From: Lamellibrachia columna
Taxonomy: Eukaryota > Annelida > Polychaeta > Sabellida > Siboglinidae
NCBI GenBank assembly: GCA_963662155.1
Contig: OY759263.1
Location: forward strand, 41,264,584 to 41,328,583
Length of the DNA: 64,000 nt
Direction of reading: 5' to 3'
The notes under the pieces were generated by a model, which searched no databases, was not told where the DNA came from, and worked only from the letters and a program-made list of their open reading frames with translations. The stretch's first letter is position 1; each line of letters starts with the position of its first letter. Both the position numbers and the translations under genes were made by a program. Positions 38,267 to 61,703 of the stretch are shown here, one piece after another.

Positions 38267-38403
38267 ATGACAAGCAGAAGCACAAACCCACACGGACTGA
38301 AACAGATCGGGCTTGATCAGATCTGGGACGATCTACAGGGAGGCATTGAACATGTGTACAGACGACAGAGCATGCCACGCACACGTTACATGGAGCTCTA
38401 TAC
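38267..38403 (+). CDS. CUL1: CUL1 exon 1 (residues 1-45 plus 2 nt)
   Basis: ATG in CCACAATGA. Contains [15 protein letters not shown] and RYMELY, the first cullin-repeat helices; the two Tyr correspond to SKP1-contact residues Tyr42 and Tyr46 of human CUL1. Donor AC|GTATCC. Confidence 0.95.

Positions 38404-61703: not shown

Follow-up and report, generated by a model that had tools for sequence, protein, structure and literature searches.

How can a conserved gene carry, at one splice junction after another, repeated copies of that very junction and still encode an intact protein? The question is raised by CUL1, the cullin-1 gene of the vestimentiferan annelid Lamellibrachia columna, which lies in a stretch of 64,000 nucleotides (nt) on contig OY759263.1 of assembly GCA_963662155.1 (positions 41,264,584 to 41,328,583 of the forward strand), hereafter the window. 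Junction-straddling arrays in this gene are real and, in our view, they are probably minisatellites of the type known in amphioxus as mirages, born of tandem duplication over exon edges and tolerated as the exon-proximal copy is the one that is spliced.

The gene model is intact.

38267..61703, + strand: CUL1, 18 coding exons from start to stop, GT-AG at every intron, a single reading frame of 772 amino acids (aa), matches to PDB cullin-1

Exons 1-8 match PDB cullin-1 structures (best E 8.4e-197), and the nearest protein among the matches listed is the cullin-1 of Lamellibrachia satsuma (P0001), in which, insertions aside, 9 of 767 aligned residues differ, two of them in the first 757 residues and seven in the C-terminal tail, from which point the gene models diverge.

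Arrays were detected by running Tandem Repeats Finder (TRF) on the window and by searching each of the 34 CUL1 junctions (as 80-nt queries) against it, and units were aligned for the arrays at exons 3, 7, 14, 15 and 17. The features found are as follows, crossing copies including the real junction and overhang being the exonic reach of the array according to TRF.

39873..39921, + strand: 20-nt minisatellite, 2.5 copies (TRF), within intron 2 and away from junctions, a counter-example
40083..40420, + strand: 44-nt array, 7.7 copies, across the exon 3 acceptor (exon start 40393); TRF and unit alignment; 8 crossing copies, overhang 28 nt
42640..42909, + strand: nested repeats across the exon 5 acceptor (exon start 42902), with TRF components 42640-42890 (115 nt, 2.2 copies) and 42855-42909 (19 nt, 2.9 copies); 2 crossing copies, overhang 8 nt
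43036..43226, + strand: 65-nt array, 2.9 copies, across the exon 5 donor (exon end 43065); TRF; 3 crossing copies, overhang 30 nt
44478..45378, + strand: 38-nt array, 24 copies, abutting but not crossing the exon 7 donor (exon end 44471); TRF; no exon-edge similarity
51146..53653, + strand: donor edge of exon 13 (12 nt of exon plus intron) in six dispersed copies; copy alignment; 5 crossing copies
53842..55349, + strand: 72-nt array, 21.2 copies, across the exon 14 donor (exon end 53888), period divisible by three; TRF and unit alignment; 21 crossing copies, overhang 47 nt
55796..57868, + strand: 38/32-nt array (38 nt, 55.8 copies) across the exon 15 donor (exon end 55826); TRF; 55 crossing copies, overhang 31 nt
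59262..60614, + strand: array of about 40 nt across the exon 17 acceptor (exon start 60602); TRF (units given as 80 and 121); 34 crossing copies, overhang 13 nt

The repeated unit contains an exon-intron boundary at seven of the 34 junctions, including the exon 13 donor, where a diverged family of six dispersed copies, rather than an array, is read as the remains of an old, broken one. The other 27 junctions, the exon 7 donor among them, match only themselves within the window. The exon 7 array begins 7 nt inside the intron and resembles the exon edge no better than shuffled sequences do (711 of 2000 shuffles reach its score), which rules it out as an eighth junction-crossing array. TRF, the junction search and this shuffle test bear out the initial annotation, which had seen seven junctions repeated together with their exon edge and an eighth array that only abuts; it was equally right that the arrays hold exon edge plus splice site and have separate units. 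TRF consensus units indeed differ between arrays, and the junction-query matches listed (the best 8 for each, window only) all fall at the query's own junction or array. Within the window there is no single repeat family spread into many introns, as would be expected of introner-like elements.

The anatomy of the units is informative. Their exonic share is 28 of 44 nt at exon 3, 47 of 72 at exon 14, 31 of 38 at exon 15 and 29 of 65 at the exon 5 donor, and canonical splice dinucleotides are kept in 112 of the 119 full units of the exon 3, 14, 15 and 17 arrays, real copies included (GT in 55/56 at exon 15, AG in 30/34 at exon 17). In none of the three large arrays is conservation clearly higher in exon-like than in intron-like columns (0.043 vs 0.008 differences per site at exon 14, 0.073 vs 0.082 at exon 15, 0.149 vs 0.065 at exon 17), and the units therefore look non-coding, while the exon 3 array, with its eight units, shows the opposite trend (0.058 vs 0.116). 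Blocks have also been re-duplicated, since seven successive exon 15 units from 56093 recur, order kept, from 57279. Periods of 44, 19, 65, 38, 38 and about 40 nt are not multiples of three (72 is; the larger exon 5 unit is 115 nt by TRF, 114 in the initial annotation), so that use of an inner copy would mostly break the CUL1 frame. The suggestion of the initial annotation that expansion is tolerated only where an outer splice site stays usable fits this anatomy. In the exon 14 array, both sizeable deletions (in the units at 54850 and 55274) remove the decoy donor GT, two cases only. A candidate origin of the intronic part of this unit from exon sequence was dropped (11 of 25 fixed-register matches, shuffle P 0.053; local alignment score reached by 2440 of 5000 shuffles).

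A simple scenario would account for these features. A small tandem duplication that happened to cover an exon edge would create a second splice site; as long as the copy adjoining the body of the exon is the one spliced, all further copies would be near-neutral intron; the array could then expand and contract into the intron via slippage and unequal exchange. The outer copies, which yield an intact conserved protein, suggest that splicing uses the exon-proximal copy, and growth by unequal exchange would be a plausible route. A processed, intronless CUL1 retrocopy elsewhere in the assembly (L027, G000:C9:57788183-57788648, 452 nt, 91% identity) also speaks for this scenario. It extends from the last part of exon 5 into the beginning of exon 9 and joins E5/E6, E6/E7, E7/E8 and E8/E9 exactly, including both donors sited at arrays in the gene (exons 5 and 7). 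Three points weigh against the scenario. Firstly, this retrocopy may be older than the arrays. Secondly, the mostly intact decoy sites, equal to the real one, would be expected to cause mis-splicing. Thirdly, in experiments with duplicated splice sites the intron-proximal copy is often favoured.

Public protein models of CUL1 provide an independent view. Among 176 homologues (the best 120 of 3438 plus the best 120 of 2322), a repeated 9-mer is found in three, from L. satsuma (P0001), Ridgeia piscesae (P0038) and the moth Mythimna separata (P0062), a figure that does not count array-free genes since a repeat-free protein model is compatible with a spliced-out array. The L. satsuma model (1141 aa) has a 336-aa insertion (14 x 24 aa) adjoining the exon 14 junction plus 26 aa at exon 15. 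In its exon 14 units, read by eye, a Q-to-K variant lies towards the intron end, just as in the window; the unit variants follow one another in a different order, and repeat number differs between the window and this record, which may be another species. Because this separate record holds translated exon 14 and exon 15 units, an artefact of a single assembly is unlikely. The Ridgeia model (838 aa) has a 66-aa insertion of 6 x 11 aa, i.e. 33-nt units, at the very exon 5 donor where the window has 65-nt units, which suggests separate events at one junction. In the moth, the repeats are readable in three frames, suggesting, from the protein record, a unit of about 137 nt. The tandem units in these three models are probably annotation errors caused by junction arrays. 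The Ridgeia genome paper (PMC9921365) mentions TRF and intron sizes but, in its accessible part, not junction arrays.

The L. satsuma model also prompts the opposite reading, namely that the in-frame exon 14 array, either as coding sequence or by alternative splicing, lengthens CUL1 by 24-aa repeats. The 72-nt period, a stop-to-stop frame (53688-55217) that spans most of the array and the 14 extra units of that record are in keeping with it. We nevertheless regard it as highly improbable, since exon-like columns vary more than intron-like ones, the array contains a frame-shifting one-base insertion, repeats are confined to the three models above and this unit occurs in L. satsuma only among the listed homologues.

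Are such arrays a peculiarity of CUL1? The assembly (879.7 Mb, 30 contigs) was searched with PF00888, which gave 34 exon matches (7 in CUL1, 2 in its processed copy and 25 others, all of which were examined), and TRF found crossing arrays at these loci, the gene names being presumptive, by likeness to human sequences.

L023: CUL3-like acceptor
L026: CUL4-like donor and acceptor
L036: CUL5-like donor
L039: CUL2-like acceptor
L041: ANAPC2-like donor

Further crossings were judged by eye at L029, at L030 and at another CUL4-like exon (L026 exon RKDLQ). The gene downstream of CUL1, an extended synaptotagmin (ESYT), has about a dozen long arrays, most of them interior to introns, of which two cross an acceptor (37 nt x 54 in one case), and NMD3, some 200 kb downstream, has two crossings, one being 88 nt x 12.7 at a donor. 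Adaptin_N gave 33 matches, and the 32 exons that remain once an intronless copy is left out carry four crossings, of which two have about two copies. Among the first 10 of 130 kinesin matches (20 junctions, by eye), a single array crosses, marginally and with two copies; another abuts, and two more start or end within about 50 nt. Of 28 matches to tubeworm A2 globins, the 6 sequences read by eye showed no noticeable repeat. Crossing arrays are thus widespread in the genome, with cullins, and above all CUL1, as the extreme. Very long minisatellites were also noticed on G000:C3 downstream of the window, at window-relative positions 87774-92605 (66 nt x73) and 70178-73664 (52 nt x67), away from the exons found.

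Whether there is a true excess of arrays at junctions was assessed in several ways. When arrays are placed randomly in CUL1 introns, allowing an exon overhang of up to 50 nt, six of nine minisatellite clusters cross an exon edge vs 0.86 expected (P 4.7e-5) and seven of nine end within 50 nt of one vs 1.8 expected (P 2.7e-4), although these P values are post hoc because the gene was chosen for showing the pattern. An earlier within-locus test by random placement, over cullin and adaptin loci (L029 and RKDLQ counted), did not reach significance over all loci (12 vs 8.0, P 0.056), with an excess for cullins (8 vs 3.6, P 0.01) and none for adaptin (4 vs 4.4). Because long arrays fill short loci, distance bins were used instead, a choice made after the within-locus result was known: signed distances were taken from exon edge to array ends, and the expectation was the density 50-400 nt inside introns. 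This test pooled 207 junctions (34 from CUL1, 50 from other cullin family genes, 64 from adaptin, 35 from ESYT and 24 from NMD3). Its totals include earlier-group counts carried over by hand; they leave out the kinesin loci as well as L029, L030, L026 RKDLQ and the dispersed exon 13 copies, which TRF missed or ended short. Exon edges were set automatically for ESYT (several begin out of frame) and for NMD3 (except a hand-typed last exon), those of L030, L035, L039 and L042 were hand-altered (that of L039 being a fallback position), and the Poisson P values assume independent arrays.

Over all 207 junctions there are 20 crossings vs 5.6 expected (P 1.9e-6), or 17 vs 2.95 for arrays of at least 150 bp; without CUL1 there are 14 over 173 junctions vs 5.2 (P 9e-4), or 11 vs 2.5 for long arrays (P 6e-5). 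With a crossing bin taken as 75 nt wide, P for arrays of any length becomes 5e-4 (all), 0.027 (without CUL1) and 0.14 (non-cullin genes).

These numbers speak to the view that CUL1 is simply the tail of a chance distribution in a minisatellite-dense genome. Indeed, 109 array clusters (period of at least 10) lie in the 274 kb that the window and the next 210 kb downstream make up (12.5 kb of which is N), many away from any exon found, and neither adaptin (4/64 vs 1.6) nor ESYT (2/35 vs 1.4) is significant singly, adaptin showing no within-locus excess either. However, CUL1 alone has 6/34 vs 0.45 and the other cullins 6/50 vs 1.8 (long arrays 6 vs 0.9, P 3e-4), and we consider chance alone an unlikely explanation.

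A second view, advanced by the initial annotation, is that splice junctions are mutational starting points, where something linked to transcription, splicing or the change in composition between exon and intron triggers tandem duplication. The pooled excess, which persists without CUL1, and the differing Ridgeia and window units at one donor argue for it. On the other side, the excess in non-cullin genes is weak (8/123 vs 3.4, P 0.022, and lost with the wider bin), the kinesin sample has little to show, and the within-locus test falls short of significance. Being strong in CUL1 and other cullins and weak elsewhere, the excess supports a splice-site-initiated process only in part, and we hold this view as possible but doubtful. 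Its R-loop version fares worse. An R-loop cause would be expected to favour G-rich coding strands, and GC skew changes sign between arrays (+0.73 at exon 3, +0.39 at exon 17, -0.23 at exon 14 and -0.50 at exon 15), so that a single R-loop cause is not favoured.

A third view combines exon-biased births with purifying selection, exonic duplications being removed so that only those reaching an intron persist. For arrays of at least 150 bp over all genes, 17 overlap an exon vs 7 ending within 50 nt outside, with about 3 expected per bin, and the exonic shares of the exon 3, 14, 15 and exon 5 donor units point the same way. The exon 5 acceptor and exon 13 units are largely intronic, though, and the bin for the first 50 nt beyond the exon, itself raised with 15 arrays over all genes, is like the crossing bin both without CUL1 (14 each, any length) and in non-cullin genes (9 against 8 crossing; 5 each for long arrays). 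Nothing there thus points to overlap with the exon in particular, and outside cullins arrays near the edge contribute to the signal as much as those that cross it. This view, too, strikes us as rather unlikely. A general junction excess in the genome is likely, but modest outside cullins. More speculatively, siboglinid exon-intron junctions might be a genome-wide hot spot of minisatellite birth, recurring at the same junction across genera and lengthening many introns, in parallel to amphioxus (and perhaps to the moth, from one gene model). We advance this tentatively, as rather less than probable; if true, animal introns in general may have grown by a route so far overlooked.

Three other elements were noticed. 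The first 15 kb of the window (1-15000), with an integrase core domain (5379-6209, +), a replication factor A C-terminal domain (13750-14493, -) and a NADAR domain (14494-14952, -), can be read from its gene content as a Polinton- or adintovirus-like integrated element, the name being our reading. Positions 28941-32021 (-) hold a reverse transcriptase like that of long interspersed nuclear elements in several open frames, with RVT_1 at 28941-29957. Protein P0181 is a tubeworm-type globin filed under Bacillus thuringiensis, probably a contaminant.

How do the CUL1 arrays compare with known systems (as described in the accessible parts of the papers cited)? Amphioxus mirages are known from Adh3, the globins BflGb6/BflGb9, PGBD5 repeats, TnC and others (PMC3087553), the literature describes their mechanism as unclear and proposes that they are linked to intron gain (PMC3087553; PMC3902484), and somatic instability has been reported at Adh3 (cited in PMC3087553). 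The likeness suspected by the initial annotation holds, since spanning a junction is part of the published description of mirages (PMC3087553); as in amphioxus, the tubeworm CUL1 units contain the exon-intron boundary and splice signals are kept in many of them. What differs is the annelid host, protein identity speaking against amphioxus (Branchiostoma CUL1 is at 81% against that of the window), which is an issue of naming for the term 'mirage' and not of structure, together with the seven crossed junctions in one gene, the up to 55 copies and the recurrence in cullin-family, ESYT, NMD3 and adaptin genes. Minisatellite expansion also alters gene structure where human internal tandem repeats lie at exon-intron boundaries, but those cases were selected as differing between recent paralogues and often change the transcript (PMC2812944), whereas CUL1 is conserved and its protein model unchanged. 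In tandem-duplication intron gain, as in the potato RdRp case, duplication over an intron-exon boundary also supplies splice signals (PMC4974935), but no new intron is claimed for CUL1, where existing introns lengthen. An earthworm gene has intronic tandem monomers too, although these are not described, in the accessible part of the report, as containing an exon edge (PMC12783039). Literature searches, with limited coverage of subscription papers, returned no paper recognisable as dealing with junction-spanning arrays in annelids.

The implications are several: (i) mirage arrays occur outside cephalochordates, in several genes of one genome, (ii) junction arrays are a route for intron lengthening, (iii) dozens of near-identical decoy splice sites beside the true one in a conserved gene offer natural material on how the spliceosome chooses (exon definition vs intron proximity) and (iv) public gene models, such as those of L. 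satsuma and Ridgeia CUL1, can mistake array units for coding sequence. In conclusion, the tubeworm arrays are of a known kind, that of amphioxus mirages, and the novelty lies in the phylum, in how densely they occur within one gene and in how many genes have them.
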